A DNA stretch of 47,500 nucleotides from Bacillota bacterium (GTDB lineage Bacteria; Bacillota; Clostridia; Saccharofermentanales; Fastidiosipilaceae): the NCBI GenBank assembly GCA_030057555.1, contig JASGUU010000012.1, forward strand, positions 1 to 47,500, given 5' to 3'. Every line of letters starts with the position of its first letter. Position 1 is the first letter of the stretch. Below are positions 1-29,879 of this stretch, in pieces. Under the pieces are notes generated by a model. The model made no database searches. It was not told the origin of the DNA and was given only the letters and a program-made list of their open reading frames with translations. The position numbers were made by a program, and so were the translations under genes.

Positions 1-53
1 TTGTGTCGCAAATGAAGTTTAGACGAAATTCAAAGGTTCAAAATGCTCTGGCT

Positions 54-108
54 GAGTGGCTCCAAAAGGCCGAGCAGGTGGCTCCGTTTGCTCCGAGCAG
101 GTGGTTCT
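54..108. repeat. Short imperfect direct repeats (GTGGCTCC / CCGAGCAGGTGG)
   Basis: GTGGCTCC occurs at about 56 and 78, and CCGAGCAGGTGG occurs twice, at 70-81 and 93-104, all within 55 bp. Closely spaced repeats of this kind are typical of the terminal regions of some insertion sequences such as the IS21 group. No transposase gene and no partner end are present in the window, so the identity is a guess. Confidence 0.3.
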
Positions 109-639
109 AAAACGCCGCGTTTTCCACGTAGGGGGTGAAATGTGAATAAGTAGAATTGTTATGAAGTTGAAGTGTCGTGCGGACTTTTTATATCATTTAA
201 TTGAAAAGTTTATGCAGAGCCTAGTTTGACGACTGTCATGCGCGTCCATGGCAACTCTCCATCTCCCAGGTGCAAGGGTTTTGAGCCATTTTCGTCATGA
301 TTTGTGCGTCCATAGATAGCTAATACGCCTCATACGCCCTGATATCAGGACTTTCGGGATGCTCAGCAAGCCCTGTCGAGTTCGCATAAGCCAACTCATA
401 CTTTTGTATCAGTGATTGCCGTTGCGAATTCGAGGATCAACGAATCTCCACCAATGACGCAGCTGCGGTATGAGAGCAAGTGCTAAGTACGTGTCCATCT
501 CCGCATCGGGACATGATCTGATTTGGGCTGAGAGGAATACGCTTCACGTTCGGTCACTGGAAGCAATCCGCAATCTCACAGTCTCATGTTCATTGACGCA
601 GGCTGCCAGGAATGTGTAACTCGGCATGACATGTTTGCT

Positions 640-786
640 TCACAATACCAGTTCGCGTCTGATCAACAGAGCAGGAAGCGGCTCGATCATGATGTAATTG
701 GTGAACTGATGACGCATGTCCTGAAGCCAGCGAAGAATCGTCAGCTTTGTCAGTCCTAAATACTCCTGCAATGTAAAGAGAAAAAA
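640..786 (-). pseudogene. C-terminal fragment of an unidentified protein (transposase-like?)
   Basis: Read on the minus strand, this is an open stretch of about 47 codons ending in TGA at 640-642. Its composition is protein-like: a Leu-rich, helix-forming N-terminal part containing EYLGLTKLTILRWLQDM, then IEPLPALLIRRELVL at the end. An in-frame stop at 787-789 closes it upstream and there is no start codon with a ribosome-binding site. The first half resembles a helix-turn-helix segment, as found in transposases or regulators, but I cannot name the family. It is best treated as a truncated relic. Confidence 0.35.
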
Positions 787-1018
787 TCAGTCTTGTTTTT
801 CAATCCATAGAAAGCTTGAAAAGGTCCGAATTTTCGGGGTCATGTCAATTTCAAAATCGTTTGTGAAAACCAAGATCCCAAATCAACGAAAGCAAGGAAT
901 TATCCAACAACTCATGTTGAAAAAACCTTGCTTTTATGATTGTGAAATAGTCTTTGAAAGTAGATAGGCTTCTGTTTTGCTGAATTCCGGCACCCAAAAA
1001 GAATGAATCAAACTGGTA

Positions 1019-1135
1019 TCATGAAACTGTATAATAAGTCATGTCCTCAGTATAATAGGACCAAAGATATCCACTGGCAGTCTTGTCAACAGACAGAATC
1101 TCCAATTCGGGTGTGTTCCATTCCTGTTTCACCAT
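1019..1135 (-). CDS. Lasso peptide precursor A3
   Basis: This 38-residue precursor peptide is encoded by ATG at 1135 and TGA at 1019-1021. The leader (residues 1-20) is identical to that of the next copy and carries W6, P9, L11 and T19, with the W-x2-P-x-L spacing of Firmicutes (paeninodin-type) lasso leaders recognised by the PqqD-like B1 protein. The core region is SGYLWSYYTEDMTYYTVS: five Tyr, one Trp and a C-terminal Ser. If the core starts at Ser21 (Thr at -2, as in paeninodin) the first acid is Glu10, which is unusual. If it starts at Gly22, Glu9 gives a normal 9-residue macrolactam. An AAAGGCGGG ribosome-binding site precedes the ATG. It is the last of three tandem genes, and its core differs most from the others. 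Confidence 0.82.
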   Translation of the reverse strand: MVKQEWNTPELEILSVDKTASGYLWSYYTEDMTYYTVS

Positions 1136-1210
1136 TACGATACCCGCCTTTCGTTGCAGTTTATCAATTCATACAATTAATTGACAATCTGTTTATGAAA
1201 ACAGGAGCGC

Positions 1211-1231
1211 AAATAAGAGAGAGCATCTCTC
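1211..1231 (-). terminator. Weak intercistronic hairpin between precursor genes A2 and A3
   Basis: On the minus strand, just after the A2 stop codon, GAGAG-ATG-CTCTC forms a 5-bp stem with a 3-nt loop, followed by a U-rich run broken by one A. It is the diverged copy of the hairpin after A1. It is too weak for full termination and may act as an attenuator or mRNA end stabiliser. Confidence 0.35.
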
Positions 1232-1234
1232 ATG

Positions 1235-1348
1235 TCATGAATAAGGATAACAGTATTCATCTTCGTAGTAATACTGATAAGTCCCGCTGGCGGTCTTGTC
1301 AACAGACAGAATCTCCAATTCGGGTGTGTTCCATTCCTGTTTCACCAT
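1235..1348 (-). CDS. Lasso peptide precursor A2
   Basis: This 37-residue precursor runs from ATG at 1348 to TGA at 1235-1237, with an AAAGGCGGG ribosome-binding site about 9 nt upstream. The 20-residue leader contains W6, P9, E10-L11-E12, L14 and T19 and ends KTA. The predicted core SGTYQYYYEDEYCYPYS has seven Tyr in 17 residues, an acidic EDE stretch, one Cys in the tail and a C-terminal Ser. Counting Ser21 as position 1, Glu9 is the natural ring-closing acid; counting Gly22 as 1, Glu8 or Asp9 would serve. The acid-flanked tyrosines fit a sulfotransferase substrate, and the C-terminal Ser fits the PadeK-type kinase reaction. It shares 57 nt of identical leader-coding sequence with A3. Confidence 0.86.
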   Translation of the reverse strand: MVKQEWNTPELEILSVDKTASGTYQYYYEDEYCYPYS

Positions 1349-1422
1349 TACGATACCCGCCTTTCGTTGTTGTTTATCAATTCATACAATTAATTGACAA
1401 TCTGTTTATGACAACAGGAGCG

Positions 1423-1444
1423 CAAAAAAGAGAGAGCATCTCTC
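1423..1444 (-). terminator. Intercistronic hairpin with U-tract after precursor A1
   Basis: Immediately downstream of the A1 stop codon on the minus strand, GAGAG-ATG-CTCTC is followed by T-C-T-T-T-T-T-T. The short stem suggests partial termination between precursor genes. It is conserved, with a poorer U-tract, after A2. Confidence 0.45.
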
Positions 1445-1447
1445 ATG

Positions 1448-1561
1448 TCATGAAACAGGATAACAGTATTCATCTTCGTAGGAAAACGGATAAGTCCCGC
1501 TGGCTGTTTTGTCAACAGACAGAACTTCCAAGTCAGGCGTGTTCCACTCAAGCTTAACCAT
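1448..1561 (-). CDS. Lasso peptide precursor A1
   Basis: This 37-residue precursor runs from ATG at 1561 to TGA at 1448-1450. It has the best ribosome-binding site of the three (GGAGGG, 7 nt before ATG) and is promoter-proximal. The leader keeps W6, P9, L11 and T19 but differs from A2/A3 at a few residues (Leu4, Asp10, Val13). The predicted core SGTYPFSYEDEYCYPVS has four Tyr, the same YEDEYCYP block as A2, and a C-terminal Ser. Glu9 is the candidate ring acid if Ser21 is residue 1. Alternatively Gly22 is residue 1 with Glu8 or Asp9 as the acceptor. The leader divergence suggests this is the oldest copy and that A2 and A3 arose by later duplication. Confidence 0.86.
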   Translation of the reverse strand: MVKLEWNTPDLEVLSVDKTASGTYPFSYEDEYCYPVS

Positions 1562-1584
1562 CACAATACCCTCCGACCAATAGA

Positions 1585-1614
1585 GTTATAAAACTCATTC
1601 TAGATCATGCTCAA
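1585..1614 (-). promoter_or_regulatory. Putative sigma-70/A promoter for the precursor array
   Basis: On the minus strand TTGAGC (1614-1609) and TATAAC (1590-1585) are separated by 18 bp, and the -10 box lies about 24 bp upstream of the A1 start codon. The match is 4/6 and 5/6 to the consensus. This would give the precursors their own transcript, separate from both biosynthetic operons. Confidence 0.5.
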
Positions 1615-1671
1615 GAACTGTTCCTGATCAGTAATCTGGCAAGTTGTTACACTTCTTCATAGGCCATTTTA

Positions 1672-1725
1672 TTAAGCGATGATAGTCTTGTCAACAAACA
1701 AAAGGCATAAAAATCGTGAGGTGAA
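1672..1725 (-). pseudogene. Possible decayed fourth precursor leader
   Basis: The minus-strand frame reads ...LLFVDKTIIA and then TAA. The DNA GTCTTGTCAACA is shared with the three intact genes at their SVDKT codons. The upstream half of the leader (W..P.LE) is not preserved. The similarity is short and may be chance. Confidence 0.22.
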
Positions 1726-2163
1726 AATGAATGTTTTCACATAGCAAGAGCCCTGAAAGCGGAAGCGATCCTCGGAACCCATCACATCAAATGCGAGCGT
1801 TATGCGCTCGTAAAGGCTGCATCAAAGATAGCATCAGATGAAAGATCGTATCAGATGATCGATTGATACCATAGCGTTCGATTCGCTCGATCCATCTCCT
1901 CAAACAGAGTTTTGAAAAAGCTACCATCTCGTTCGTGTGGAGCCACCAACGCGGCGCAACGGATTCCTGACATCGTTCAGACTTACACGGATCGTCCAGC
2001 AGTTCTGTAAGTGCTGAAATCGCTTTGTAGTGTATCGGAGACTGTTTGTGTGGACGATTTCTATCTGATGGGAGTTCATCTGCAGCAGACTCTTTTCCAG
2101 TCATACTCTTTGTCGCCGCCGTGCGAGAACGCGATGAAAACGTCGAGTTCGTATGAATAGTAG

Positions 2164-2169
2164 TATAAT
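2164..2169 (+). promoter_or_regulatory. Candidate -10 box for the kinase-PAPS operon
   Basis: A perfect TATAAT lies about 125 nt before the kinase start. No good -35 box is found at the usual distance, so the call is weak. Confidence 0.25.
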
Positions 2170-2293
2170 TTTAAATTGATTATGCACAGATGGCATGCGT
2201 GATCCATACACTTGAATTCCTGCTGAATTTGCCGAAGAAATCTTCGAGTATATGAACAGAAAAACATACTCATTTTGAAAAGAGGATAGTCAA

Positions 2294-3247
2294 GTGCGGA
2301 AAGCTTATGTTTACAAAGCATATGGGCTTTTATTCTCCTCAGAGTTGGCAATTCCGGAGTTACCAGAAGCGGAAGGTACACCGGATGTGTTCGTTAAAAT
2401 CGGCACTGTTCCAAGCTCATTGTGTTGTTCAGGGCGATCAAAACTGGCATTTCAGGCTGCTCCCCAGGAATTCCTGCTGCGCTTGAAGAACATAGCCCGG
2501 TTTTATGTTTCTGAAGGCCGCGAGATAACAGTTGAGTTACAGGCGGGAGGAAAAGACAAGGATGTACGGCTTTATCTGTTGGGATCCGTTTTTGGTGCAT
2601 TGCTGCAACAGCGGGGCTATCTGGTGCTGCACGGATCCTCGATTGAAATAAACGGTGACGGGGTACTCTTTGCTGGCGAATCTGGCATTGGAAAATCCAC
2701 CCTGGCAGCAGGCTTCCAAAACCGGGGGTACAGGATTTTAACAGATGACGTTTCTGCCATTGACATTGATCAGGAAGGTATTCCCTATGTTCTGCCAGGC
2801 TTTCCCAGCCTCAAATTATGGAAGGATGCTGCTGAGAGGCTGGGGGCCGACGTGAGCGGCTTGTCAGCAGTCAGAACAAATGTGGATAAATACAGGGTCG
2901 ATCTGGAAGCAAGCTTCTGCAATCAGGCCGTCAGACTTCAGAACGTGTTCATTTTGGAAAAAGACAGCAGAAGTGAAATAAGGATTGATGAAATAGAAGG
3001 CCCTGACAAAGTGGAATCATTGATAAGTAACACCTACAGATACCACTTTCTAAAAGGTCAGGGTATAAAACCGGTCCACTTTCAGCAGTGTGTATGTGTA
3101 GCCAATCAAGCCGTCTTTTATCGTGTAACTCGCCCACAGGCTGGGTTTATGCTGGATCAGCTGGTTTCCGCCATAGAGGATAGAATACAGACAAACCAGC
3201 CAGTGGATAGACATATTCGGGCGACAGGAATGGAGACGATCAGTTGA
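2294..3247 (+). CDS. HprK-like kinase of the lasso cluster (kinase 1)
   Basis: This 317-residue protein is related to HPr kinase/phosphorylase and to the lasso-peptide kinase PadeK. Visible features are the VLHGSS segment with His113, a P-loop GESGIGKST at 128-136, and LTDDVSAI with Asp151-Asp152, all in the HprK order. PadeK phosphorylates the C-terminal Ser of the paeninodin precursor; the three precursors here all end in Ser, so the same role is likely. The start is GTG with GAGGA upstream. The stop overlaps the TTG start of cysD (TTGA), so kinase and PAPS supply are translationally coupled. A second HprK-like gene lies at 9270-10160; the two have different active-site details. Substrate assignment is by inference. 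Confidence 0.8.
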
Positions 3248-4125
3248 ACCGTTTAGATATGCTGGAAAATAGAAGTGTACACATTATTCGTGAAGCCTAC
3301 AGCCAGTTTGTCAATCTCTGCATGCTCTGGTCCATTGGGAAGGACAGCACGGTATTGTTATGGCTTACCCGCAAAGCATTCTTTGGCCATGTGCCATTTC
3401 CTCTAATCCACATCGACACCCGCTATAAGATTCAATCCATGGTCGAATACCGGGACAAGCTTACAAGAGAATGGAAGCTGGATATGATCTATGGCGAGAA
3501 CACGGAAGCACTGGAAAGCAAAGCAACGTTTCCGGATCATAACGCCACCCGCCTGGAATGCTGTCGCAGGCTTAAAACAGATGCTCTGACGAAAACCCTT
3601 AACGGTGAGGGGATTCGTTACCGCTTTAACCATGCGGCTGACGAATATGAAATAGATCATAATACAGAGCCGTTTACTGGAGTTATAGTGGGACTTCGTG
3701 CTGATGAGGAAGGCAGCCGATCCAAAGAACGCTATTTTTCCGCCAGGGACAAGGATAATGTCTGGCACATTTCCGAACAGGCACCAGAGTTCTGGAATCA
3801 GTACAAGACAGATTTTAAATACGGTACACATGTCAGAATTCATCCACTATTAGACTGGACCGAGCTGGACATATGGGAATATATCAAGCGTGAGAATATC
3901 ACCATGGTGCCACTCTATTTTAATCATGGCGACGGCAAACGGTACCGGTCGCTGGGCTGCTGGCCCTGCACCAAGCCAGTTGCTTCCGATGCGAGCAATG
4001 TGGACGAGATTATTGAAGAACTGAAAACTGGCAAATTCGCCAATATCGCAGAACGATCAGGCCGGGAACAGGATAAGGAGGACGGCGGCGGTCTGGAAGA
4101 ACTGCGAAAGGAAGGGTACATGTAA
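3244..4125 (+). CDS. cysD: Sulfate adenylyltransferase small subunit, CysD family
   Basis: This is the catalytic subunit of ATP sulfurylase (ATP + sulfate to APS), which works with the CysN GTPase. The 293-residue protein shows the PP-loop [12 protein letters not shown] (SGGKDS variant) about 30 residues in, then [21 protein letters not shown], matching the CysD signature region, and the C-terminal [10 protein letters not shown]. The start is TTG, overlapping the kinase stop by 4 nt, with GGAG upstream. It is followed without a gap by the CysN-CysC fusion. No APS/PAPS reductase or sulfite reductase gene is in the window, so the pathway ends at PAPS here. This favours a dedicated role in supplying the sulfotransferase at 8410-9270. 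Confidence 0.93.
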
Positions 4126-6057
4126 GTGGCAAACGAAGACGAACGGCCCCGTGAAGACATGAGCATCGTTGTTGTAGGTCATGTGGATCATGGAAAAAGC
4201 ACCATAATCGGCAGATTACTGGCAGATACCGGCTCTCTTCCCCAGGGGAAGCTGGAAAGCGTAAAAGAACGCTGCCGCCGTAATTCGCGCCCTTTCGAAT
4301 ATGCATTCCTGCTTGATGCCCTGAAAGATGAACAGAATCAGGGCATCACCATTGACGCGGCCCGTTGCTTCTTCAAAACCCATTTGAGAAACTATATGAT
4401 TCTTGACGCACCGGGACATACTGAATTTCTAAAGAATATGGTAACCGGTGCATCGCGTGCCGAAGCCGCCCTGCTGGTCATTGACGCCTGGGAAGGCATT
4501 ATGGATAACTCCAAACGACATGGATTCCTCTTATCCATGTTGGGAATCAGGCAAATCGCAGTTCTAGTCAATAAGATGGATCTGATTGATTATGATGAAC
4601 GGAAATATGAAGAGATAAAAAGAGAGTACCAGGCTTTTTTGCGGCAAATTGGAGTTAATGCAACTGCTTTCATCCCTGTCAGTGGCAGGCAGGGAGATAA
4701 TATCATCGCTCCTTCCGCGTGCATGACCTGGTATCAGGGAGATACTGTTCTGGAATTACTGGACCGGTTTACGAAAGACAAAATGCCTGCGGACAAACCG
4801 TTCAGGATGCCGGTTCAGGATATATACAAGTTTACGGCCTTTGGAGATCAAAGGAGAATTATCGCCGGTACCGTTGAGACGGGCCAGCTGGCTGCAGGAG
4901 ATGCCGTTGTTTTTTATCCATCCCGGAAACGCTCGGTTGTTAAAAGACTGGAAAGTTTTGGTGATCATCCCAGGCATATGATCGCGCCTGGGGAGGCAGC
5001 TGGCTTTACTCTAAGGGAGCAAATATATATCCGGCGTGGGGAAATAGCTGTTAAAGAAGGGCAGGAACCTCCTGCGATTGCCAACAGTCTTCGTGTCAAT
5101 TTATTCTGGCTGGGCAACCGGCCAATGGTTCCTGATCGAGAGTATTTTTTGAAACTGGGAACTGCCAGAGTAAAAGCCAGATTGCACCGGATTGAACGAG
5201 TTTTGGATGCAGTACGCTTGGACAGTTCTGAAAAAGACATAATCGAAACACGTGATGTGGCGGAGTGCATTCTTTTGCTAAGCCAAGAGATCGCCTGCGA
5301 TCTGGCCGGGGACAATCTGTCTACAGGTCGCTTTGTAATTGTGGATGATTATGAGATATCTGGTGGCGGCATTATTCTGGAAACCCTGCGGGACAGCAGC
5401 CAATGGATCATGAAGCAACCATTGGGAACACAATACAGCTTTGATAAAGCCGATCAGGATCTGGTCTGGCACAGTGGTCAGGTTTCCTATGCCAATCGTT
5501 GTCAGCTCCTGCAGCAGAAGGGCTTGGTCATTTGGTTCACAGGCCTTTCCGGGGCTGGTAAATCGACCATAGCGGCCGCAGTTGAAAAAAAACTGACAGG
5601 AATGAACAGACTTGTCTATCGGCTGGATGGTGATAATGTACGCAGTGGCCTTAACAGCGATCTGGGGTTTACCAAAGCAGATCGCGATGAAAACATCCGT
5701 CGCCTGGCCGAAGTTGCAAATCTGTTTAAGGATGCGGCCATCATCACACTGGTAGCAGCCATATCGCCATATGCGGCCATGCGCAGTTTCGCACGTGAAA
5801 CGATCGGTTTCCATGATTTCATCGAAGTATATGTAAAGGCTGATGTTGAAGAATGCATCCGGCGGGATCCCAAAGGATTCTACGCCCGTGCCCTGCAGGG
5901 AGACATCAATGGTTTTACAGGAGTAGCAGATCCCTACGAGGAACCACAAAATCCGGATATTGTTATCGATACCATGCAGTTATCCATCGAAGAGGCAACC
6001 GACATGGTGCTTGATTATTTGATAGATCAGGACCTCTTAAATCCGTGTGTTTCATGA
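4126..6057 (+). CDS. cysNC: CysN-CysC fusion: sulfate adenylyltransferase GTPase / APS kinase
   Basis: This 643-residue bifunctional protein has the NodQ-type architecture. The N-terminal CysN GTPase has GHVDHGKST at 18-26, LDAPGHTEF (G3) and NKMD (G4). It drives APS formation by CysD. The C-terminal APS kinase begins near residue 465 with [12 protein letters not shown], then DGDNVR, and keeps the ISPY segment containing the kinase serine. It converts APS to PAPS. It starts with GTG directly after the cysD stop. Together with cysD it forms a complete sulfate-to-PAPS module inside the lasso cluster. Downstream, the lasso cyclase gene converges from the other strand, leaving a spacer of 173 bp with only a weak hairpin. 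Confidence 0.94.
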
Positions 6058-6230
6058 ACTGCTCACATCAAAGCTTTGTCTGATCGCTGAAAACCCCACG
6101 CATTACATTCTTTGCAGCCAAGGGCTACATGTAGCTTACATTCCGCACCTTTCTGCGGCGAAATTCTCTGGTTTGCTCGCGGTCTCAGACAGCTTGTCAA
6201 GGCCTGCTGGACATGCAGTTTCGCATTTTG

Positions 6231-8108
6231 TCAAGAACTGCCAGACATTGATACGCTTTCCTGCACGGTTTCTGCCAGAATTGTTTGGATGTCCATACAG
6301 ACGGCAAGCCTCCTGGAGATATGAGTATTCGCTTTCTGCTTAACTGGAGTTGCATTGACCATTGCCTGTAATGAATCCCAATTGATATAGGCAGAAAAGA
6401 GATTGCGGTCCAGTTGGCTGACAGCTGCCCTGATCCTGGTCAGATTCCCTTCAGCCCGATTGCTGCGAAGGAGTGTAGATTTGGCTATGTCGTCCTTGGT
6501 AGAATATTTTGCGTAATCTCGAGGCAGTATTTCAGAAAAAGCCTGGCGGAAAATATATCTATTCACACCCTGCCTGTGATATAAGGTTCTGGGGATAGAC
6601 AGGGCGAAATCCACGACCTGATAATCCAGAAAAGGAAAAAGGTGCTGCACATTGAATAGAGCTCCCAATCTGGCAGTTAGTTCAGTTCTAGTCTGAATGG
6701 CTCCCGACTCAAGAAATTTTACCGGATTTACTGCAAATTCCAGACGATCTTTCTTACAGCGTCTTTTCATCTTTTTGCTAAACTCTTTGCTCGCTATACT
6801 GGGTGCACGCCTGGCAGGCTGGTAGAAATAACTGATACGACGCTTTAGATATACTATGATGCTATTGGCAAGAACAACTTTCAAGAATTTAAGGAATGAC
6901 CCATGAGCTAAAAGCCAGGTCTGTTGCACAAAGTGTTTCCAATAGCCCGCGCGCAGCAAGGAAAACAGACTGGCTCGTTGACTGATGGCATCATCACCGC
7001 CCCAGCCGCTAAGAATATAACTCACGCCCCGGGAGGACAGCTCCTGCAGCTCCCGGTACAAGGGTTTTTCAGAGGCCGATCCACCCGACGGAAGTGTTGC
7101 ATGATCTTCTCTCACAGCTGAGACTTCAAGTGGATTATCAAAAAGGCAATGTAATCCTTCCTGTCGGCAGACCGCAGCAATCAGTTCTCTTTCATCCGCC
7201 GGCTGTAAATCCAACAAGTCAACTGGTGGTGACCAGGAATACAAGTTCCCCAGGCTTCTGCCATTTCTTTTCAGCTCTCGACTGGCCAGAATAGTAATGA
7301 CCGCAGAGTCCAGTCCGCCGCTGAGTTCAGCACTGATCACAGCCTGAGTGTAATTGACCCGGCGCCTGATGGCATCATCGACAACATCAAATAGTGCCTG
7401 TGTATACTCCGCGTCGGTACTGAATGTGATTTTTTCACCCGCTCCGGGGGTCCAGTACTTTTCTTTTTGAATGCTCTGCGAATCGACCTTCAATACGTGT
7501 GCCTGAGGGAGACTTTTGATGTGCTCAAAATAAGTGCGTTCCGGGGCTATATGAAAGGTACCGCTCAGCAAGGAGTACAGTTTGACCTCATCCAACTGTT
7601 TCCCCACCCAGGGCAAAGCCAGTAAAACACGCATATCCGTAGCAAAAGCGAAGGTAGAGCCGCTGTAATAATAAAACAAAGGCCGTACCCCCAAATGATC
7701 TCGTGCAATGAACAGTTGTTTTTTCTGTCTGTCCCAGATGGCAAAGGCAAAGTCCCCGTTCAGATAGCGGGGACACTTCTCTCCCCACTTCCTGTATGCA
7801 GCCATCAGCAAAGCTTGAGTTGATACATTTTCACTTTCGACAAGCTTGTATTCATTGACCAGTTCTGTCTGATTGTAAATCTGAGCATCACTTACCAGTA
7901 TATTTCCGGTCTCATCCGTATAAACAGGTGTATCCTGCATTCTTGACAAATCAGGCAGATAGAGACACGCACCGAGTCCGAGATCCTGACAAAGTCGAAA
8001 GTCCTGCTGATTGCGGCCATAATGGGTCAATCCGGCCTGCATCTGCAGCAGATCCGTTTCTTTCACATTTTCTCCACGTATTTTCCAGACCCCAAATATG
8101 GCACTCAT
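6231..8108 (-). CDS. Lasso peptide cyclase (asparagine synthetase homologue, C protein)
   Basis: This ATP-dependent macrolactam synthetase adenylates the Asp/Glu side chain of the core and joins it to the core N-terminus. The 625-residue protein has an N-terminal Ntn-type domain beginning MSAIFGVW. The nucleophilic Cys2 of true asparagine synthetases is replaced by Ser, as expected for a lasso cyclase that does not use glutamine. The synthetase domain shows ELSGGLDSAV (PP-loop, 261-270). It is the last gene of the minus-strand operon. Its ATG overlaps the B1 stop (ATGA), which implies coupling. Length and domain order match the lasso C family. It could be mistaken for AsnB, but the neighbours and missing Cys2 argue against that. 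Confidence 0.93.
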   Translation of the reverse strand: MSAIFGVWKIRGENVKETDLLQMQAGLTHYGRNQQDFRLCQDLGLGACLYLPDLSRMQDTPVYTDETGNILVSDAQIYNQTELVNEYKLVESENVSTQALLMAAYRKWGEKCPRYLNGDFAFAIWDRQKKQLFIARDHLGVRPLFYYYSGSTFAFATDMRVLLALPWVGKQLDEVKLYSLLSGTFHIAPERTYFEHIKSLPQAHVLKVDSQSIQKEKYWTPGAGEKITFSTDAEYTQALFDVVDDAIRRRVNYTQAVISAELSGGLDSAVITILASRELKRNGRSLGNLYSWSPPVDLLDLQPADERELIAAVCRQEGLHCLFDNPLEVSAVREDHATLPSGGSASEKPLYRELQELSSRGVSYILSGWGGDDAISQRASLFSLLRAGYWKHFVQQTWLLAHGSFLKFLKVVLANSIIVYLKRRISYFYQPARRAPSIASKEFSKKMKRRCKKDRLEFAVNPVKFLESGAIQTRTELTARLGALFNVQHLFPFLDYQVVDFALSIPRTLYHRQGVNRYIFRQAFSEILPRDYAKYSTKDDIAKSTLLRSNRAEGNLTRIRAAVSQLDRNLFSAYINWDSLQAMVNATPVKQKANTHISRRLAVCMDIQTILAETVQESVSMSGSS

Positions 8109-8386
8109 TGAATATCCAGCAGTCCCTCTCTCGACATGGCGTTCAAAAAAGCAAGCACTTCAGCTTCACATTGCTCCCTGGTAACATCGTATTTTTCAAG
8201 CAAAACCCGGATGATGGTTTCCACAGAAACCGGATTGTCAATCATTCTCCAAATAACGGTACCCATATTCCCGAGATTATAGTATTTCCCGGTTTCCAGA
8301 CTCATCATGACGACTTCGCCGTCCATTTCAGCGGTGGTAATCTCCTTTTTACCTGCTATAACGGAGTTTAGAACAACTGCTTCCAT
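8105..8386 (-). CDS. Lasso peptide B1 protein (PqqD-like RiPP recognition element)
   Basis: This small PqqD-family protein (93 residues) binds the precursor leader and delivers it to the B2 peptidase and cyclase. Features include the GEVVMMSLETGKYYNLGNMGTVIW region, typical of PqqD/RRE strands, and a helical C-terminus. I place the start at the ATG at 8386, because a GGAG Shine-Dalgarno lies 7 nt upstream. A TTG at 8413 overlapping the sulfotransferase stop would add nine residues and lacks its own site. The stop overlaps the cyclase start. Its expected ligand is the W6-P9-L11 leader motif of the three precursors. Confidence 0.9.
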   Translation of the reverse strand: MEAVVLNSVIAGKKEITTAEMDGEVVMMSLETGKYYNLGNMGTVIWRMIDNPVSVETIIRVLLEKYDVTREQCEAEVLAFLNAMSREGLLDIQ

Positions 8387-8409
8387 GACCCTGCTCCTTT
8401 CGCGCCCAA

Positions 8410-9270
8410 TCAATACACGATATTACCATAGGGATCCAGATAACCGCATTTGCTCATGATGATTCCATGATCCGACAGTAATCGGTCTCTTTGTTCATCG
8501 CTTAAGTGATTCCTCCAGTCTCCAACCTTACCGGAGCGGAAGAAGGACGGTGATTTAAACATCTTCTCCCTGAACCCATGCTCTTCCTCCTGGCTTTTAA
8601 GTACTTTAAAATCAGACAGTTCCAGAGCGCGAATAATTTCTTCTTCGCTGCTGTTCAGACCAATGAACCGCACTGCCTCCGTAAAGGTGCGTAATGGATC
8701 CAGACTCATGTCCTCGTATCGCAGTAAATGAACCGGGAGTTCTCGGGCCTGCATCCAACTGTCAACATGGTGGCTCCAGGTCAGCAGCTTTTGCCTCAGC
8801 TGGTTGGGCAATCTGTCAGGGAGGTCACAGAGAGCATGCGACTCACTGCCCATCACTCTTATCATGTGATCGATGTCTCTGGCTGCGTGATTTGCATAAG
8901 ACACGGCTACATCGAGCGGGTTACGCATGATGTAAACCGCTCGTGCATTGACCGTGCCCAACAGCGGACTGCCATTCTCCAGATAGGTATAGGCATCGTG
9001 GACTTTTATGAACAATTTCCTGTTCGTTTTCCGGGCCAGGTAATTATATGCCTCTGGCCTTAGTTGATCGATTTCATCCGCTGTCAGATTCGATGACTCA
9101 ACTCCGATGAGAGGGTCAAAGATCAGTCTGGAACTAAAGATTCCATCGGTCGGTAAATTATTTATCGTGATCTCGATGCTTTCCTCACTGATCAGGTTCG
9201 CGATGAAAGATCGAAACCAGGTGTTGCCAGACTTGGGATAGGAAGCCAGCCATACAATACCACCATCCAT
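8410..9270 (-). CDS. PAPS-dependent sulfotransferase (lasso tailoring enzyme)
   Basis: This 286-residue cytosolic sulfotransferase has the three hallmark elements in order: YPKSGNTWFR at 11-20 (5'-phosphosulfate binding), YIMRNPLDVAVSYANH at 113-128 (3'-phosphate binding), and RSGKVGDWRNHLS near the C-terminus (the RKGxxGDWKNHFT-like PAPS loop). His91 in FIKVHDAY is in the place of the usual catalytic base. It overlaps the upstream kinase gene (TAATG) and sits between kinase 2 and B1. PAPS comes from the CysD/CysNC operon. The likely acceptor is a tyrosine (or Ser/Thr hydroxyl) of the lasso precursor or product; this is inferred from the Tyr-rich acidic cores and the operon context. Confidence 0.9.
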   Translation of the reverse strand: MDGGIVWLASYPKSGNTWFRSFIANLISEESIEITINNLPTDGIFSSRLIFDPLIGVESSNLTADEIDQLRPEAYNYLARKTNRKLFIKVHDAYTYLENGSPLLGTVNARAVYIMRNPLDVAVSYANHAARDIDHMIRVMGSESHALCDLPDRLPNQLRQKLLTWSHHVDSWMQARELPVHLLRYEDMSLDPLRTFTEAVRFIGLNSSEEEIIRALELSDFKVLKSQEEEHGFREKMFKSPSFFRSGKVGDWRNHLSDEQRDRLLSDHGIIMSKCGYLDPYGNIVY

Positions 9271-10160
9271 TAGCCCAACTCCTCCAGAATAAGACCAGCG
9301 AGCTTTTCTACCGGATAAACAATATTATTGAAAACCACCTCATAAAAAGAGGCTTGTTGGACGACAGCAGAGCCCATCTGAAAAAAACGGCCTCTGTCAA
9401 CTAAGGCATGATCAAAACAAGCATGTTGAATCAAATGCTTAAACTTGGAACCTCCTTGAATGGGTTGATAGTTCAAGGTCATCTGATTATGTCTACGCAG
9501 AAAAATGACACAGGCCAACTCACTCCCGACAGAAGCGAAGCGATCACAAACTGGAACGGCATACTTGAGGAGTCCGGTTCTGATTGGCGCATAGCTGCGA
9601 AAATCGCGGCCCGTTTTCGCCAGAGTATCCTGCCAGGCATTCAATTGCGGTATGCCGGGTTGAGCGACGATTTTGTCATTACGTATTTGGATTGCACAGA
9701 CTTCATCACCGAGCAGTTTATAGCCCAGATCATAAAAACATAAGGCCAGGGCCGTTTTACCTACTTGAGAAGGTCCGAGAAAAACGACGGCCTTGCCATT
9801 CACAACCACCGCTCCTCCGTGCAGGACTAAATAATCCCTCTGACTGAGCAGGGCAGGTAGAACCGTGCCAAGTAAAAACACCCGTATATCCTGGGCTTTC
9901 GCGTTCATGCAGGGCTCGATAATGATCTCGTCACCATTCTTTGCGTAGTAGCTGGCTACTCCACTTACACGAAGCAGATACTCGTCGGTTGTGATCTCCC
10001 ACCATGGTGATTGATCAAGGGGCACTTCCAGTCGATCCGGCACTTTTCCCCAAACAATCTTTATGTCTGCCTGACCTTCTGCAGAGAACAATTCCGGGAG
10101 CTCCAGGTCTGAGTGCAGAATAAGTCCGAAAGCTGTATAAACATGGCTTGTTTTCAGCAT
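9270..10160 (-). CDS. Second HprK-like kinase of the lasso cluster (kinase 2)
   Basis: This 296-residue paralogue of kinase 1 has the same layout: MLKTSHVYTAFGL at the N-terminus (compare [12 protein letters not shown]), LVLHGGAVV with His114, P-loop GPSQVGKTA at 129-137, and LLGDEVCAI. The Asp-Asp pair of kinase 1 is Asp152-Glu153 here, and the P-loop is more divergent. The two kinases are thus unlikely to be simple duplicates in function; one may act on the C-terminal Ser and the other on another site, on another precursor or further down a polyphosphorylation path. The gene is 31 nt after the exporter gene and overlaps the sulfotransferase start by 1 nt, so it is cotranscribed with the core biosynthetic genes. 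Confidence 0.8.
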   Translation of the reverse strand: MLKTSHVYTAFGLILHSDLELPELFSAEGQADIKIVWGKVPDRLEVPLDQSPWWEITTDEYLLRVSGVASYYAKNGDEIIIEPCMNAKAQDIRVFLLGTVLPALLSQRDYLVLHGGAVVVNGKAVVFLGPSQVGKTALALCFYDLGYKLLGDEVCAIQIRNDKIVAQPGIPQLNAWQDTLAKTGRDFRSYAPIRTGLLKYAVPVCDRFASVGSELACVIFLRRHNQMTLNYQPIQGGSKFKHLIQHACFDHALVDRGRFFQMGSAVVQQASFYEVVFNNIVYPVEKLAGLILEELG

Positions 10161-10191
10161 GGAATACGACTCTTCTTTCCCCGATTTCTAC

Positions 10192-11997
10192 TCAGTTTAA
10201 CATTTCCCTGTTAATATCTACTATCTTTCTGAATTTGCTTTGGTCTGACTTTATGAGTTCTTTTAAATGTCCACTTTCAACAACTTCCCCCTCATCTATA
10301 ACAATAATCTGATCAGCTCGGTTTATTGTTTCCATACGATGGGCAATAATAATGATAGTCAGGCGGTCTTTCATCCCTTCAATTGCCTGCTGAATTTTGA
10401 ATTCATTCTCCACATCGAGTGCACTGGTGGCTTCATCCAGAATCAGCAATTGAGGCGTTCTAATCAAGGCGCGGGCCAGTACGATCCTCTGTTTTTCTCC
10501 TCCAGACAGCCTTACTCCCCGATCGCCCAGCAGGGTATCAAGCCCCTGCGGGAGTTTGCTGACAAAGTCTCTGGCGGCAGCCATTCCCAGAGCATCCCAT
10601 AATTCCTCTTCACTGGCTCCTGGATTGAAGCACAGGAGATTCTCACGTATTGTATCGTTAAACAAAAATGGATCCTGGGGAACGTAACTGATCACCTTTC
10701 GCCAATCAGATAGAATACTGCCCTCAATTATCGTATTGTCTACCAGAATTCGTCCGGTATCAGGTTTCAAAAGGCCCAGGAGCAAATCAACCAGTGTGCT
10801 CTTTCCTGCGCCAGACTTTCCTACCAGCGCTGTTATCGAATGAGCCGGAATGCTGATGGAAATATCTCGCAGGGCGAAACTCTCTTCATCATGCCGATAT
10901 GTAAAATTCACATCTTCAAACTCTATCGCATTCTCCAGTCTCAGCCTGCCTGTGGGTTGCTCTGCATCCCCGCTGACAACCTGCTCGGTTTGCATGCTCA
11001 ATTCATGCTTAAGCTGCTGGAGAGACTGATAGGCTGGCATTATCGCGAAAACATTCAATAGATTGTTCTGCAGGGAGGAAAAGCCGGGCCACAATCGAGC
11101 AAAAATGAATATGACAATGAGCATGGAAGCCGGTTCCACCTGCAAAAGGTTAACAGCGAAATAAAAAAGAAAACTAATGACTAGAGCTGCCGCGATCTTA
11201 TAGAAAAAATCAGGCCGGGTTTGCAGGCGCGTAACGTCAGTTGCGTTCTGCTCCATTTCAGCTGTGAGAATGCGGAATCTCTCCTCCTGCTCCTTCTCAA
11301 CGCCGTAGATCTTGCTCTCTTTGATGCTTCCCAGTTGTTCGGTAATACGTCCCATCAGCGCACGGTTCAATCCGTGGGTCAAACCGCCCAGCTGCCTGGA
11401 TTTCATCAGATTGCTGTTCATAAGTAAAAACATCAATGTACCACAGATCAAAACAAAAGCAGTTAAGAGCGGTGATGCCAAAAATGCAATGTACAGCTGT
11501 ACCACAGCCAGAAGCAACTGTGCGCATATCCTGAGCAGGAAGATGGTTGCCGAGGATACCCTGTTCACTTCAATGACAAAGGCATTGGTGATATCTGTCA
11601 GTCTTTTGCCAGTCAGGCAGGCCCAGTCACATCGTAGAATCTTCGAGAACAAATCCTCTCGTAAGTATCTGGCGTAACCCTGTGTAAGCTGAACATTCAG
11701 TATCGCCATCCGTCGGTTTACGATCGCCTGAAATATGATCAGTACAATATACACCAGCAGCACAAGCAGCAACTGCACTGATGAATCAAACTGATCCAGC
11801 CATGACAGGGCATGCCTGAGAAACGGAACAGTAACTGTTCTATCCCCTGTTATTCCGGTAATGGCCAGCATGGGAACCAACAGAAGCACCCCTATCCCGC
11901 TGGTCAAACTGGCAACAATCATATGCAGGATATTTGACAAAAGCCTGTTTGGAGAGAAGGTAGATATATCTTTTATTAGCGGCCATAGCGTATTCAT
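10192..11997 (-). CDS. ABC exporter of the lasso cluster (D protein)
   Basis: This 601-residue fused ABC transporter has an N-terminal membrane domain with about six helices (around 21-47, 72-93, 154-195 in two, 267-300 in two) and a C-terminal ATPase with GKSGAGKST (393-401), LSGGEKQR (498-505) and LLILDEATSALD (517-528). In lasso clusters the D protein exports the mature peptide and gives self-immunity. There is no N-terminal C39 peptidase domain, which fits the separate B2 peptidase. It lies between the nucleotidyltransferase and kinase 2. A 165-bp spacer precedes it. Confidence 0.9.
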   Translation of the reverse strand: MNTLWPLIKDISTFSPNRLLSNILHMIVASLTSGIGVLLLVPMLAITGITGDRTVTVPFLRHALSWLDQFDSSVQLLLVLLVYIVLIIFQAIVNRRMAILNVQLTQGYARYLREDLFSKILRCDWACLTGKRLTDITNAFVIEVNRVSSATIFLLRICAQLLLAVVQLYIAFLASPLLTAFVLICGTLMFLLMNSNLMKSRQLGGLTHGLNRALMGRITEQLGSIKESKIYGVEKEQEERFRILTAEMEQNATDVTRLQTRPDFFYKIAAALVISFLFYFAVNLLQVEPASMLIVIFIFARLWPGFSSLQNNLLNVFAIMPAYQSLQQLKHELSMQTEQVVSGDAEQPTGRLRLENAIEFEDVNFTYRHDEESFALRDISISIPAHSITALVGKSGAGKSTLVDLLLGLLKPDTGRILVDNTIIEGSILSDWRKVISYVPQDPFLFNDTIRENLLCFNPGASEEELWDALGMAAARDFVSKLPQGLDTLLGDRGVRLSGGEKQRIVLARALIRTPQLLILDEATSALDVENEFKIQQAIEGMKDRLTIIIIAHRMETINRADQIIVIDEGEVVESGHLKELIKSDQSKFRKIVDINREMLN

Positions 11998-12162
11998 AAA
12001 CTATCCAGTACTTTCTTTGATGCGCTCCCTGCCATTCCTCACCTGGAAAGGCAGTGGCGTCCAGATAGGCATTTTCGTCGTCTTCTGCCAACGGCATTCA
12101 CATTGAGGTTCACTTCATACGGCACCACCGGTACAAATCCACCGGCTGTAGATCTGCTCCCA

Positions 12163-13362
12163 TCAGCTGCGCCTGATAATCGATCTATACACTTTCAAAA
12201 ATGGACGGACCAGATAGTACATGAAAAAAAACCGATCGCTAAAATGTATGGTATTTAAGTCAATGAGAGCAGGCCGGAATCTGTTAACAAAAAACTCAAG
12301 CTTTGACCTTAAGCCTTTCGATCTAAGCATATTGTATTTCCATATACGATTATTGAAAAAACTCCCTCCCTGCATGGATGATTCATCAGTTTCGGTCATG
12401 ATTGAAATAGCCTGTAATGCCATCTTCTGTCCTGTTCTGCTGGTAACAAGGGATGCTCTTAGCGCTTCAGGTATCTCAATATGCAAAAGATTCTCAACCA
12501 GGATTACAGTCTGCACCAGCATCTCCATGATGTTCATCTCGGTGACTCGTTTCAAGATCCTCCCCCAGGGCAACTTGTCTTTCTTGATAATTTCTGCGAT
12601 ATCACAAAGCCATCGCAATCTACTGTATCCATGGGCGGAGCCATGGAAAAGCAGGTATAAGAACTCATCCTCATCGGACAAAACATTGATGGTTTGCCCG
12701 CTGAGTTCAGATCCCTTTCGGTTTTTCCACAGCTCATCAAAATGAAACACCGTGTTCCCCGAGCTTACTCTCCAATGCATCTCAATGATGACACGGTCTT
12801 TATTTTGATAAACAAAATGTTGTCTGGTTCTTATCAGGTATGCTTTTTGTTTGGGCGAAAAACAAGCATCCGCGTCAATTCTCCGAAAGCCATTGGCCAG
12901 GAGCAGTTTGTCGGCCTTATCTATATCATGCTCAGAAATAAGAATATCCAGGTCTTTGGAACTTCTATAGGCAATATCGCCATATATATTGATGCTTAGC
13001 AGCGGGCCTTTCAGCGATATCACGCTTATGTCGGAATCTTCCAGTAATCTCGCCACATTCACAAGTTCACTGGCCAGTCGTACTGACTGCATTACCTTTC
13101 TCTGAGATATTCGATGCAACTCATTCAATGCTCTTGAGTTGACATTCTCTGAATGAATCCTGGTCAGTTGCCGATAAACCGTCATATAGACGCGATGTCT
13201 TTCAACTATTATCAAAAAATCATCCCAGCTTATTCCCGCTCCTAAGATATCCCTGATTTTCTCTTCCTGCTCCACTGGTATATCTTTAATTGAACAGAGC
13301 AGGAACAGCTTCATTTCATCCGGCAAGGCTTCAATTTTTCTACCCAGGTCTTCTCCCCGCAT
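12163..13362 (-). CDS. Nucleotidyltransferase-fold protein of the lasso cluster
   Basis: This 399-residue protein matches the uncharacterised nucleotidyltransferase family often found in paeninodin-type lasso clusters (NTP_transf_5-like). Visible motifs are SLKGPLLSINIYGD (117-129), RSSKDLDILI with Asp137 and Asp139 as the likely metal ligands, and VIIEMHWRVSSG further on, the E-H-W element of the family. The N-terminal 100 residues are helical. It may transfer a nucleotidyl group to the peptide or to another substrate, but no reaction has been assigned to my knowledge. It sits between B2 and the exporter in the same operon. The start is ATG with a weak GGGTGA site upstream. Confidence 0.8.
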   Translation of the reverse strand: MRGEDLGRKIEALPDEMKLFLLCSIKDIPVEQEEKIRDILGAGISWDDFLIIVERHRVYMTVYRQLTRIHSENVNSRALNELHRISQRKVMQSVRLASELVNVARLLEDSDISVISLKGPLLSINIYGDIAYRSSKDLDILISEHDIDKADKLLLANGFRRIDADACFSPKQKAYLIRTRQHFVYQNKDRVIIEMHWRVSSGNTVFHFDELWKNRKGSELSGQTINVLSDEDEFLYLLFHGSAHGYSRLRWLCDIAEIIKKDKLPWGRILKRVTEMNIMEMLVQTVILVENLLHIEIPEALRASLVTSRTGQKMALQAISIMTETDESSMQGGSFFNNRIWKYNMLRSKGLRSKLEFFVNRFRPALIDLNTIHFSDRFFFMYYLVRPFLKVYRSIIRRS

Positions 13363-13390
13363 AAATCAATCACCCAACGGAATAAACCGT

Positions 13391-13831
13391 TTACATATCA
13401 GCAAAGACGGATACGACACTGTAATCAACTCTGGCCTGTGCTCCAGTCACCGTCGTTTCGCCGCTCCTCAGCCATGCGTGAGCGATCAAGGACTGGTTTC
13501 CATCACGGGCTACACCCAGATATAAAGTACTACTAATATGCCTTCGCCGTAACATGAATTTGGCAGTAAGGGCCTGAACCAGGCATTTGCTCTTCCAAAA
13601 CGTACGTCGGCTGGTGGCCTGCACCGCCCAGGATATCCTTTTGATTACTGTCAGTTCTTCTGTACGGCTTTCCATCGGAGATTCCTGCATATGCTGTCCT
13701 AAATATGGAGCGATACGCTTGAAAGGCATTATAAGAAGAATTAGGCGAAAGAAACCCAAAAGAATAATACTTTCAAGCAACATGAGTTTTTCTGGCGTTT
13801 TCAGTCTAAAAAACTTTCTTATACTGTTCAT
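13391..13831 (-). CDS. Lasso peptide B2 protein (transglutaminase-fold leader peptidase)
   Basis: This cysteine protease removes the leader before cyclisation. The 146-residue protein carries WKSKCLVQALTA with the catalytic Cys and LIAHAWLRSG with the catalytic His, the B2 hallmarks. I chose the ATG at 13831 because AGAAGG lies 6 nt upstream; the ATG at 13837 directly abuts that site. The N-terminal part contains hydrophobic helices (LESIILLGFFRLILLIM), usual for split B proteins. It is the first gene of the minus-strand operon B2-NTase-D-K-ST-B1-C. Cleavage is expected after TA or TAS in the precursors. Confidence 0.9.
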   Translation of the reverse strand: MNSIRKFFRLKTPEKLMLLESIILLGFFRLILLIMPFKRIAPYLGQHMQESPMESRTEELTVIKRISWAVQATSRRTFWKSKCLVQALTAKFMLRRRHISSTLYLGVARDGNQSLIAHAWLRSGETTVTGAQARVDYSVVSVFADM

Positions 13832-14490
13832 ATTCATCCTTCTTATATTATGGACGATGTGATGGAAAGCAATAGCAGTAAAGAAACAATGTCTTGGACG
13901 GTAGCAGGATTTGTGTAATGCTCGGACGACAGTCCGTTATTCCGAAAAGCTCTGATCATCCACTGTTACATACCCGCACAAGATCCGTATTCACCTCCCA
14001 TATTCCATAACATTCCTGAACGGTTCATATCATATGATACTTCGCGCAGGGAAAATAAAGCGGACATTTCCATCCTCCTCGGATAAACCCGTTCAGCAGT
14101 GCCAGGATCACGCAATGGCTGATTATCAGCCTGACTGGAACTTCCACGGCAGATCTCCGTCTCCGAGGAGGGCGCCGCCATTGTTCTCCTCTTCCCATAT
14201 CACATGGGCGACAGCATCATGCCAGCCGCTGCGGCATGTGGCGCCCATGCCGGCAAAACTCCGGGAGACCGCCCGTCTCTGCCTGTCTCTCGAGCTCCGC
14301 CGAGCACTGCAGAAGCCGGCAGCCAGGACAGCAGAGTTTGCGAAAGTCCCTGGCAGACAAAGCCGGCACCTCGAACACCTGCAACGCAGCAGCTAACTTC
14401 AGGGGCTGAGAGCACTGGCATGTACCGAGTCATATATAAGATGCTGCCGGCGCCTGCCAAATGCAGTCCGTCAACATCAGACCAGCCGGC
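13832..14490. other. Boundary region upstream of the lasso operon
   Basis: No convincing gene is found. The part nearest B2 is AT-rich and must contain the operon promoter, though I see no clear -35/-10 pair. A small hairpin CGGAC-GACA-GTCCG sits at 13923-13936. A 71-codon minus-strand frame (13966-14181) has no ribosome-binding site and no leader motif. From about 14.15 kb the DNA becomes GC-rich, which marks the right edge of the lasso island. Confidence 0.4.
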
Positions 14491-28081: not shown

Positions 28082-28094
28082 GCGAGGTACGCAT

Positions 28095-29879
28095 ATGAGT
28101 GAAGCTGTGAAAAGCCAGACTGCGCCCGTCGCCGAAGCTGCCGAGACGCTGACCGTCACCATCAACGGCCAGGCTGTCAAGGCCCGGCCCGGCCAGACGA
28201 TCCTCGAAGTCGCGAAGGAGAACGGCTACCACATTCCGACCCTCTGCCACTTCGACCTCGCGAACCTGCGCTATGTCAACGAAGTCGCCTCCTGCCGCAT
28301 CTGCATGGTCGAGGACCGCAAGCGCGGGCGCCTCTATCCCGCCTGCGCCACGCCCGTCTCCGACGGCATGGACATCCAGACCAACAGCCTGCGCGTCATC
28401 CGCAACCGCCGCAACGTCCTCGAGCTCATCCTCTCAGACCATCCTTTCGACTGCCTCGTCTGCTGGAAGAACGGCGACTGCGAGCTGCAGGCGCTGGCGA
28501 GCGAGGTCGGCCTGCGCGAGATCCGGGTCAAGGGCGAGCGCCATCAGGTCAACGTCGACACCTCGTCGCTCTCCTTCATCCGCGACAGCTCGAAGTGCAT
28601 CCTCTGCAAGCGCTGTGTCACCATGTGCTCGCAGGTGCAGTCGGTCAACGTCTACTCGGCCGTCGGCCGCGGCTTCAACTCCGTCATCTCGACCGCCTTC
28701 GACCTGCCCATGATCGACACCAACTGCACCTTCTGCGGCCAGTGCCTGAGCGTCTGCCCGACCGGTGCCCTCGCCGAAGTCTCCAATATCGACAAGGTCT
28801 GGGCCGCCCTCACGAGCGGGAAACACGTTGTCGTTCAAACCGCCCCGGCCGTCCGCGTCGCCCTGGGCGAGGCCTTCGGCATGCCGCCGGGAAGCAACGT
28901 CACCGGCCGCATGGTCACCGCCCTCAAGCAGATGGGCTTCAACGAGGTCTTTGACACCAACTTTGCCGCCGACCTGACCATCATGGAGGAAGCGACCGAG
29001 CTTGTGCACCGCATCGAGCACGGCGGCCGCCTGCCCATCCTGACCTCCTGCTGCCCTGGCTGGGTCAAGTTCTTCGAGCACCAGTTCTCCGACATGCTCG
29101 ATGTCCCCTCGAGCTCGAAGTCCCCGCATGAGATGTTCGGCTCGGTGATCAAGACCTACTTTGCCGAACGCCAGGGACTGAAACCCGAGGACATCATCGT
29201 CGTCTCCGTCATGCCCTGTGTGGCGAAAAAGTTCGAGTCCGCCCGCCCCGAGCTCATGAACGAGGGCGTCAGCGACGTCGACATCGTCATCACGACCCGC
29301 GAGCTCGCCCGCATGATCCAGGAGATCTCCCTCGACCTCGAGAATCTCGAGGACACGCCCTTTGACGATCCTTTCGGCGAGTCGACCGGCGCGGCGGCAA
29401 TCTTCGGCTCCAGCGGCGGCGTCATCGAGGCAGCTCTGCGCACCGCCTACGAAATCATGACCGGCGACAAGCTCGAGGATGTCAACTTCACCCCGCTGCG
29501 CGGCCTCGAGGGCTCAAAGGAAGCCACCGTCAGCATCAACGGCGCCCCGATCCGCATCGGCGTCGCCTCCGGCCTCGGCAATGCCCGCAAGATGATCGAG
29601 TCGATCCGCAGCGGCGAGCAGGTCTACCATGCCATTGAGATCATGGCCTGCCCGGGCGGCTGCATCGCCGGCGGCGGCCAGCCCTATCACTTCGGCAACA
29701 TGGAGCTGATCAAGAAGCGCATGGAGGCGATCTACGCGATCGACGACAACGCCGAGGTCAGAAAGAGCCACGAGAACACAGCCGTTCAGCGCCTCTACCG
29801 CGAGTATCTCGGCGAGCCCTACGGCCAAAAGGCAAAGGAGCTGCTGCACACGACCTACACGCCGCGGCGAAAATTCTAG
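28095..29879 (+). CDS. hydA: [FeFe] hydrogenase catalytic subunit HydA (group A3-like)
   Basis: This 594-residue catalytic subunit has an N-terminal [2Fe-2S] domain (Cys51, 67, 70, 84) and a His-Cys3 cluster region (HPFDCLVCWKNGDC, His116, Cys120, 123, 129). Two [4Fe-4S] clusters follow (Cys168/171/174/178 and 211/214/217/221). The H-cluster motifs are LTSCCPGW (Cys319 proton relay, Cys320 ligand), MPCVAKKFE (Cys375) and MACPGGC (Cys519, 523). It starts at ATG 28095 with GAGG upstream; a longer open frame upstream is an overlap artefact with hydB. No HydEFG maturases are in the window, so they must lie elsewhere. Confidence 0.95.
   Translation: MSEAVKSQTAPVAEAAETLTVTINGQAVKARPGQTILEVAKENGYHIPTLCHFDLANLRYVNEVASCRICMVEDRKRGRLYPACATPVSDGMDIQTNSLRVIRNRRNVLELILSDHPFDCLVCWKNGDCELQALASEVGLREIRVKGERHQVNVDTSSLSFIRDSSKCILCKRCVTMCSQVQSVNVYSAVGRGFNSVISTAFDLPMIDTNCTFCGQCLSVCPTGALAEVSNIDKVWAALTSGKHVVVQTAPAVRVALGEAFGMPPGSNVTGRMVTALKQMGFNEVFDTNFAADLTIMEEATELVHRIEHGGRLPILTSCCPGWVKFFEHQFSDMLDVPSSSKSPHEMFGSVIKTYFAERQGLKPEDIIVVSVMPCVAKKFESARPELMNEGVSDVDIVITTRELARMIQEISLDLENLEDTPFDDPFGESTGAAAIFGSSGGVIEAALRTAYEIMTGDKLEDVNFTPLRGLEGSKEATVSINGAPIRIGVASGLGNARKMIESIRSGEQVYHAIEIMACPGGCIAGGGQPYHFGNMELIKKRMEAIYAIDDNAEVRKSHENTAVQRLYREYLGEPYGQKAKELLHTTYTPRRKF

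Follow-up and report, generated by a model that had tools for sequence, protein, structure and literature searches.

The lasso peptide clusters of paeninodin (padeA/K/C/B1/B2/D) and pseudomycoidin (psm, with PsmN) are the closest described relatives of the locus reported here, which shares with them the WxxP leader motif, a Thr at position -2, the C-terminal Ser, an HprK-like kinase, split B1 and B2 genes, a PF14907 gene and an ABC exporter. The locus spans positions 1019-13837 of a 47,500-nucleotide stretch (the window, positions 1 to 47,500 of contig JASGUU010000012.1) from a Bacillota bacterium of the family Fastidiosipilaceae, represented by a metagenome-assembled genome (MAG) that is 96% complete. 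It differs from the two known clusters by a second kinase, a SULT-type sulfotransferase (ST), a CysD protein and a CysN-CysC fusion (CysNC), and three Tyr-rich precursors. The original prediction, which a model had made from the letters of the window, was of lasso peptides both sulfated and phosphorylated, with their own supply of 3'-phosphoadenosine 5'-phosphosulfate (PAPS). That the locus is a genuine variant of the paeninodin-type clusters is well supported, and we consider it likely that its product carries sulfate from PAPS which the cluster itself makes, is also phosphorylated, and is probably decorated by the PF14907 protein, here called N.

Dedicated PAPS genes have a precedent in NodPQ/NodH, where additional copies of ATP sulfurylase and adenosine 5'-phosphosulfate (APS) kinase feed one sulfotransferase in the biosynthetic locus, as in the window, although the acceptor of NodH is a lipochitooligosaccharide of the Nod factor type. 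The glycopeptide sulfotransferases Teg12, StaL and Teg14, which sulfate phenolic groups of peptide antibiotics, have the folds closest to that of ST and act on macrocyclic peptides, but their substrates are non-ribosomal and they share only about 21-26% identity with it. In Xanthomonas, RaxST modifies the ribosomal peptide RaxX with PAPS as donor; RaxX is not a lasso peptide, its acceptor is a Tyr whereas in the window Tyr is only a candidate, and the PAPS genes of that system are core housekeeping genes (PMC6637879). Firmicutes lasso clusters with putative sulfotransferase genes were mentioned by Zhu et al. in 2016, according to the passage citing them in PMC8498205, and they share with the window a sulfotransferase gene within a lasso cluster. 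The loci of our sample which fit that remark (L129-L131) carry an unrelated, NoeE-like sulfotransferase upstream of C, whereas the window has a PF00685 protein paired with a kinase and ATP sulfurylase. Reviews of lasso modifications up to 2026 name no sulfate (PMC9266682, PMC13352647). The literature gave no paper joining lasso peptides and adenylylsulfate and, in its full-text part, no characterised sulfated lasso peptide, a weak negative as most subscription papers and preprints lie outside the coverage. This agrees with the statement that no characterised sulfated lasso peptide is known, but the genes had been noticed before, in the 2016 remark. New are PAPS synthesis encoded within a lasso cluster, exclusive to it in this genome and recurrent elsewhere, the pairing of kinase and ST across phyla, and the case against Tyr as a general acceptor.

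A sulfotransferase and a probable private PAPS supply in a lasso peptide locus

Open reading frame (ORF) analysis with Pfam and NCBIfam profiles assigned to the locus three precursors, B1, B2, the putative cyclase C, the exporter D, two HprK-like kinases (K1 and K2), ST, CysD, CysNC and N. On the minus strand B2, N, D, K1, ST, B1 and C follow one another from 13837 to 6231, with the precursors at 1564-1019; K2, CysD and CysNC occupy the plus strand from 2294 to 6057. Every gene named in the original prediction (the precursors, B1, B2, C, exporter, CysD, CysN-CysC, sulfotransferase and two kinases) was found close to its predicted position, while N (12163-13362) had not been named there.

ST (8410-9270, minus strand) matched PF00685 with 106 bits (cut-off 22) and contains the motifs ASYPKSGNTW, KVHD and RNPLDVAVS. 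The features of the family are present, namely the 5'-phosphosulfate-binding motif (YPKSGNTW), the catalytic His91, Arg116 and Ser124 of the 3'-phosphate-binding motif, and the SULT fold. Lys13, Lys89, His91, Arg116, Ser124 and the FF..G region were invariant in 56 aligned homologues, so that the expected complete set of PAPS motifs proved intact in the protein and conserved across its family. The AlphaFold2 model (pLDDT 96) is nearest to Teg12 (Z 22.6 over 232 residues, 2.6 A), StaL (20.3) and Teg14 (20.2), with SULTs close behind at Z 19-20. The gene is embedded, as had been described, between K1 and B1 with overlapping stops and starts (TAATG at K1/ST, TTGA at ST/B1); all such overlaps, including those at B1/C (ATGA) and K2/CysD (TTGA), are of 1-4 bases, and the CysD and CysNC genes abut.

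CysD (3244-4125, plus strand; NF003587, 341 bits against a cut-off of 195; 1zun_A, E 5e-55) is the small subunit of ATP sulfurylase, and CysNC (4126-6057, plus strand; PRK05506 over residues 12-635; apsK, 234 bits against 139) joins its GTPase subunit to an APS kinase. The PAPS module is thus complete, with both ATP sulfurylase subunits and the APS kinase. A family-by-family search of the genome recovered the cluster genes as its sole CysD, sole APS kinase and sole PF00685 protein. No Sat was present in this genome and no APS/PAPS reductase of the CysH type scored above cut-off, PF01507 giving only CysD; a sulfite-reductase-like gene lies on contig C6, and no link between it and PAPS was found. 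Among 188 genomes of the order, a bona fide APS kinase (E below 1e-50) occurred in three (G000, G054 and G055), each time in such a locus or a remnant of one, ST in two (G000 and G055) and lasso B2 in four. The PAPS operon might have been a general assimilation pathway shared by lasso-free relatives; it was not found in any relative without lasso genes among these 188. General sulfate assimilation was rejected, since there is no Sat and no PAPS reductase above cut-off, the sole copies are those of the cluster, and relatives without the locus type, among the 188 genomes, lack PAPS genes. The claim of dedicated PAPS genes was borne out by the same absence of other copies and of an assimilatory PAPS reductase, and a PAPS supply private to the cluster is strongly supported.

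The cluster in two relatives

G055, from another family of the order, has the same gene set, including two kinases and N, split over two contigs, one ending in D-N-B2-kinase and the other starting with A-A-A-kinase-ST-C-ATP-grasp-CysD-CysNC-ABC importer-CysC (A, precursor). The joining of these contigs is our inference, and B1 was found in neither. Its CysNC has a degenerate APS kinase domain, with only a partial match, for which a separate and intact CysC downstream apparently compensates (L007 6448-11492 for the whole stretch). An NMT1/SsuA-like ABC importer lies between the two, and the ATP-grasp protein between C and CysD (L007 4321-5592) is of the sugar-transfer-associated type (PF14397). 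G054, of the same genus as the window genome, has kept D-N-CysC (L110 14445-17943) beside a homologous neighbour gene, without ST, B2 or C; its CysC and N reading frames overlap, and the group is apparently a cluster remnant.

Precursors, kinases and the predicted pathway

The precursors A1 (1019-1135, core SGYLWSYYTEDMTYYTVS), A2 (1235-1348, core SGTYQYYYEDEYCYPYS) and A3 (1448-1564, core SGTYPFSYEDEYCYPVS), all on the minus strand, are ORFs of 38, 37 and 38 amino acids within a 213-bp tandem duplication and match a precursor hidden Markov model (E 5e-11 for A1). Each of them ends in Ser and has the WxxP motif in its leader and a Thr at -2. Among core positions 7-9, A2 and A3 have an acid (Glu9) for the ring, and A1 has its first acid at position 10. 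The description of Tyr-rich cores ending in Ser was confirmed, Tyr making up 31% of the window cores, with Glu or Asp neighbours. A fourth precursor relic was suspected at 1684-1703, which is better read as the -35 element of a promoter.

K2 (2294-3247, plus strand) matches PF07475 above its cut-off (39.7 bits) and has the complete kinase motif set of His, Walker A Lys and Asp-Asp. K1 (9270-10160, minus strand) matches the HPr kinase C-terminal domain weakly (E 4e-4); it keeps His114, the Walker A sequence GPSQVGKT and Asp152, with Asp-Glu in place of Asp-Asp, a variant also seen in the ST-adjacent kinases of loci L023 and L041. In the kinase tree, K2 falls into one group (0.99) with the second G055 kinase and with the L023 kinase that lies next to ST, and K1 groups with the ST-adjacent kinase of G055 (0.93). 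Two HprK-like kinases were also seen in lasso clusters L064, L067, L081, L048 and L042. The target of other lasso kinases is the C-terminal Ser or, for BsfK, Ser3 (PMC10368454), and therefore the two kinases could serve two sites. Phosphorylation is predicted from the family to which the kinases belong and from the C-terminal Ser of all three precursors.

The remaining lasso genes, all on the minus strand, are B1 (8105-8413), a PqqD-like leader-binding RiPP (ribosomally synthesised and post-translationally modified peptide) recognition element (NF033536, lasso_PqqD_Bac, 102.8 bits against a cut-off of 80); the transglutaminase-like leader peptidase B2 (13391-13837; NF033537, lasso_biosyn_B2, 113.8 bits against 33); the putative macrolactam cyclase C (6231-8108), whose position and domains fit and whose match to NF033535 (E 4e-99) is below the curated cut-off; the ABC exporter D (10192-11997; PF00664 and PF00005); and N (E 1.6e-57), a nucleotidyltransferase-family protein of the PsmN type. 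In pseudomycoidin, PsmN has been associated with the attachment of a hexose to the phosphoserine (PMC8498205, PMC9266682), and the presence of a PF14907 gene makes a sugar or nucleotidyl decoration probable.

In the pathway that we propose, CysD and CysN would convert ATP and sulfate to APS, the fused CysC would turn APS into PAPS, and ST would consume it. B1 would bind the WxxP leader and at least one kinase would phosphorylate the C-terminal Ser, while the other may cooperate with ST or modify another residue, for instance Thr3. B2 would then cut off the leader, C close the ring and D export the product. The sulfate would be placed on Tyr of the Tyr-rich cores, on the C-terminal Ser, or on a group built on its phosphate.

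The kinase-sulfotransferase pair recurs across phyla

A scan of GTDB genomes gave at least 80 ST loci, which are best matches and hence a biased sample; with G055 and the window, 82 loci were compared. In 73 of them an HprK-like kinase is encoded on the same strand as ST and no more than 300 bases from it. Full context was available for 45 loci, which contain B1 (37), B2 (30), C (36) and N (28). Hosts among the matches listed include Bacteroidota, Pseudomonadota, Acidobacteriota, Chloroflexota and others. This comparative evidence shows the kinase-ST pair to be a cross-phylum module and not a one-off.

APS kinase genes have a density of 0.29 per Mb in 49 host genomes, so that 0.39 would be expected near ST in the best 80 loci, against 10 observed (Poisson P 2e-11); in the first 50 loci, the source of the density genomes, 7 were found against 0.23 expected. 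In three loci (L028, L036 and L040), from Legionellaceae and from a gammaproteobacterial MAG related to them, the APS kinase is a bifunctional Sat-CysC above cut-off, placed directly after D or, in L036, after B1, and directly before N in L036 and L040. These genes (L028 4893-6557, L036 4554-6224, L040 12880-14565) are the only APS kinases of their genomes. A hunt for precursors in the Legionellaceae loci gave none that was convincing. In L042, L060, L059 and L089 the PAPS genes lie several kb away and could be general. Private PAPS synthesis had been put forward as a striking feature of this cluster; the PAPS genes are exclusive to it within the window genome, but pairs of kinase and ST, and PAPS genes inside lasso clusters, are met again in other phyla.

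As a control, lasso loci from Bacillota and Bacteroidia were sampled by B2, and an APS kinase was present in 6 of the 10 with any sulfotransferase versus 1 of the 19 without one (P 0.003). In Paenibacillus-type loci L129-L131 the sulfotransferase is the unrelated NoeE-like protein (L129 4960-6234, L130 13874-15142, L131 5210-6478), encoded just upstream of C with its stop overlapping the C start, and a CysC gene lies beside D. The similarity to NoeE is weak (138 bits against a cut-off of 500). Since this enzyme is unrelated to ST, sulfotransferases seem to have been recruited to lasso clusters at least twice. The cores of L129-L131 have Tyr5, and the core of the ST-free locus L133 has Trp5.

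The sulfate acceptor and alternative readings

The original prediction placed the sulfate on Tyr. We collected 47 Ser-ended precursors, one of them (in L049) probably spurious, from 35 ST loci. Tyr is absent from 19 of these 47 cores and from every core found in 13 of about 34 such loci, counts that are strong, not final, as some precursors may have been missed; L152 combines ST, an APS kinase and a Tyr-free core, and the L054 cluster is likewise Tyr-free. Tyr had been considered as a mark of clusters with ST and was rejected, its share being 4.7% in cores of the other ST loci and 6.4% in Bacillota cores without this ST. Because cores devoid of Tyr are so frequent in the homologous clusters with a kinase-ST pair, Tyr is doubtful as the acceptor of the whole family, as judged from these sequences. 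In the window it is possible, given the 31% Tyr cores and a fold like that of phenol-acting enzymes, and the specificity of ST could differ between lineages. The assignment to Tyr thus fails as a general rule and survives as a local option.

Sulfation by ST of one or more core Tyr that have acidic neighbours, in the manner of RaxST on RaxX, is a plausible reading that we would place short of even. It draws on the Tyr content and acidic neighbours of the window cores, on the phenol-sulfating enzymes Teg12, StaL and Teg14 as closest folds, and on a tail Tyr present in 6/6 precursors of the window and G055, and it has to contend with the Tyr-free precursors and with the low Tyr share of the other ST loci. 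Alternatively, ST may act after the kinase at the C-terminal Ser end, for example on a sugar attached by N via the phosphate, to give a sulfated phosphoglycosyl lasso peptide; we hold this to be nearly as plausible. The C-terminal Ser is the only hydroxyl-bearing position shared by all of the 26 clean cores (26/26), ST is paired with the kinase predicted to modify that residue, and 28 of 38 kinase-ST loci with full context contain N. The N gene is moreover abutted by Sat-CysC in L036 and L040 and overlapped by CysC in G054, and the second sulfotransferase, that of L129-L131, is similar to NoeE, which sulfates a fucose of the Nod factor. Yet no N lies within reach in 10 of the 38 loci, the resemblance to NoeE is slight, and the ST of the window is nearest to phenol sulfotransferases. 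A wider proposal, that kinase and ST form a tailoring pair across many phyla which builds a phospho-sulfo end group on the C-terminal Ser, possibly via a sugar that N attaches, and that PAPS synthetases joined such clusters repeatedly to supply it, is speculative and in our view less likely than not; if true, it would be a new class of RiPP modification.

Two further explanations are less probable. By chance, CysD and CysNC might simply neighbour the lasso genes while serving ordinary sulfate assimilation or capsule sulfation. The polysaccharide genes 30 kb off (44.6-47.2 kb) and the sulfite-reductase-like gene of contig C6 lend this some colour, but the genome has no CysH-type reductase and no other PF00685 sulfotransferase, order relatives without such a locus lack PAPS genes, and these genes recur near ST in other phyla, which together make it improbable. 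We hold it to be more improbable still that sulfate is a leaving group, ST activating a Ser or Thr for elimination to a dehydro residue in a sulfate-free product. The SULT-fold relatives retinol dehydratase and LGS1 do go through sulfated intermediates, but they rank below Teg12 and StaL in the fold comparison and the cluster has no lyase gene; we know of no lasso peptide precedent.

Several observations weigh against a sulfated and phosphorylated product made with cluster-borne PAPS. K1 is divergent, and A1 may not form the canonical ring because its first acid is at core position 10. The difference in APS kinase between control loci with and without a sulfotransferase weakens to P 0.017 once three congeners are merged, a CysC lies 3.4 kb from the ST-free lasso cluster L133, and N-CysC is retained without ST in G054; an APS kinase near lasso genes is therefore not always linked to a sulfotransferase, as had been considered. 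The step in guanine-plus-cytosine (GC) content near 14 kb reflects horizontal transfer or, failing that, a contig that was misjoined in the MAG. We nevertheless favour the sulfated, phosphorylated product, which predicts a class of lasso peptides apparently not yet isolated. Since the PAPS supply is encoded in the cluster, this prediction can be tested directly by expression in a heterologous host. An HprK-like kinase immediately before a PF00685 gene, close to B1/B2, offers a rule for genome mining. Both anionic decorations, if real, would bear on the role of paeninodin-type peptides.

Genomic setting and putative regulatory elements

The GC content is 43-49% over the cluster (window 1-14000) and 62-66% at 14001-42000, with the sharp step near 14 kb, and returns to 43% at 44000-46000, among polysaccharide genes, a pattern of horizontally acquired islands or possibly of a chimeric contig. 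Because G055 has the same gene set, horizontal transfer of the whole cluster, PAPS genes included, is likelier than a misjoin. At 43347-47244 the window encodes a LytR-CpsA-Psr protein, a polysaccharide pyruvyl transferase and a flippase, the start of a surface polysaccharide locus. Genes for a NuoF-like subunit and an [FeFe] hydrogenase at 26195-29879 fit an anaerobic host. Upstream of A3, a putative promoter of the precursor genes (TTGACA-17-TAAAAT, 1666-1694, minus strand) agrees with the consensus at 11/12 positions, a near-consensus match only. The hairpin GAGAGATGCTCTCTC, also a consensus match only, follows A3 with a T-rich tail (1430-1444, minus strand) and is found again after A2 (1217-1231, minus strand).

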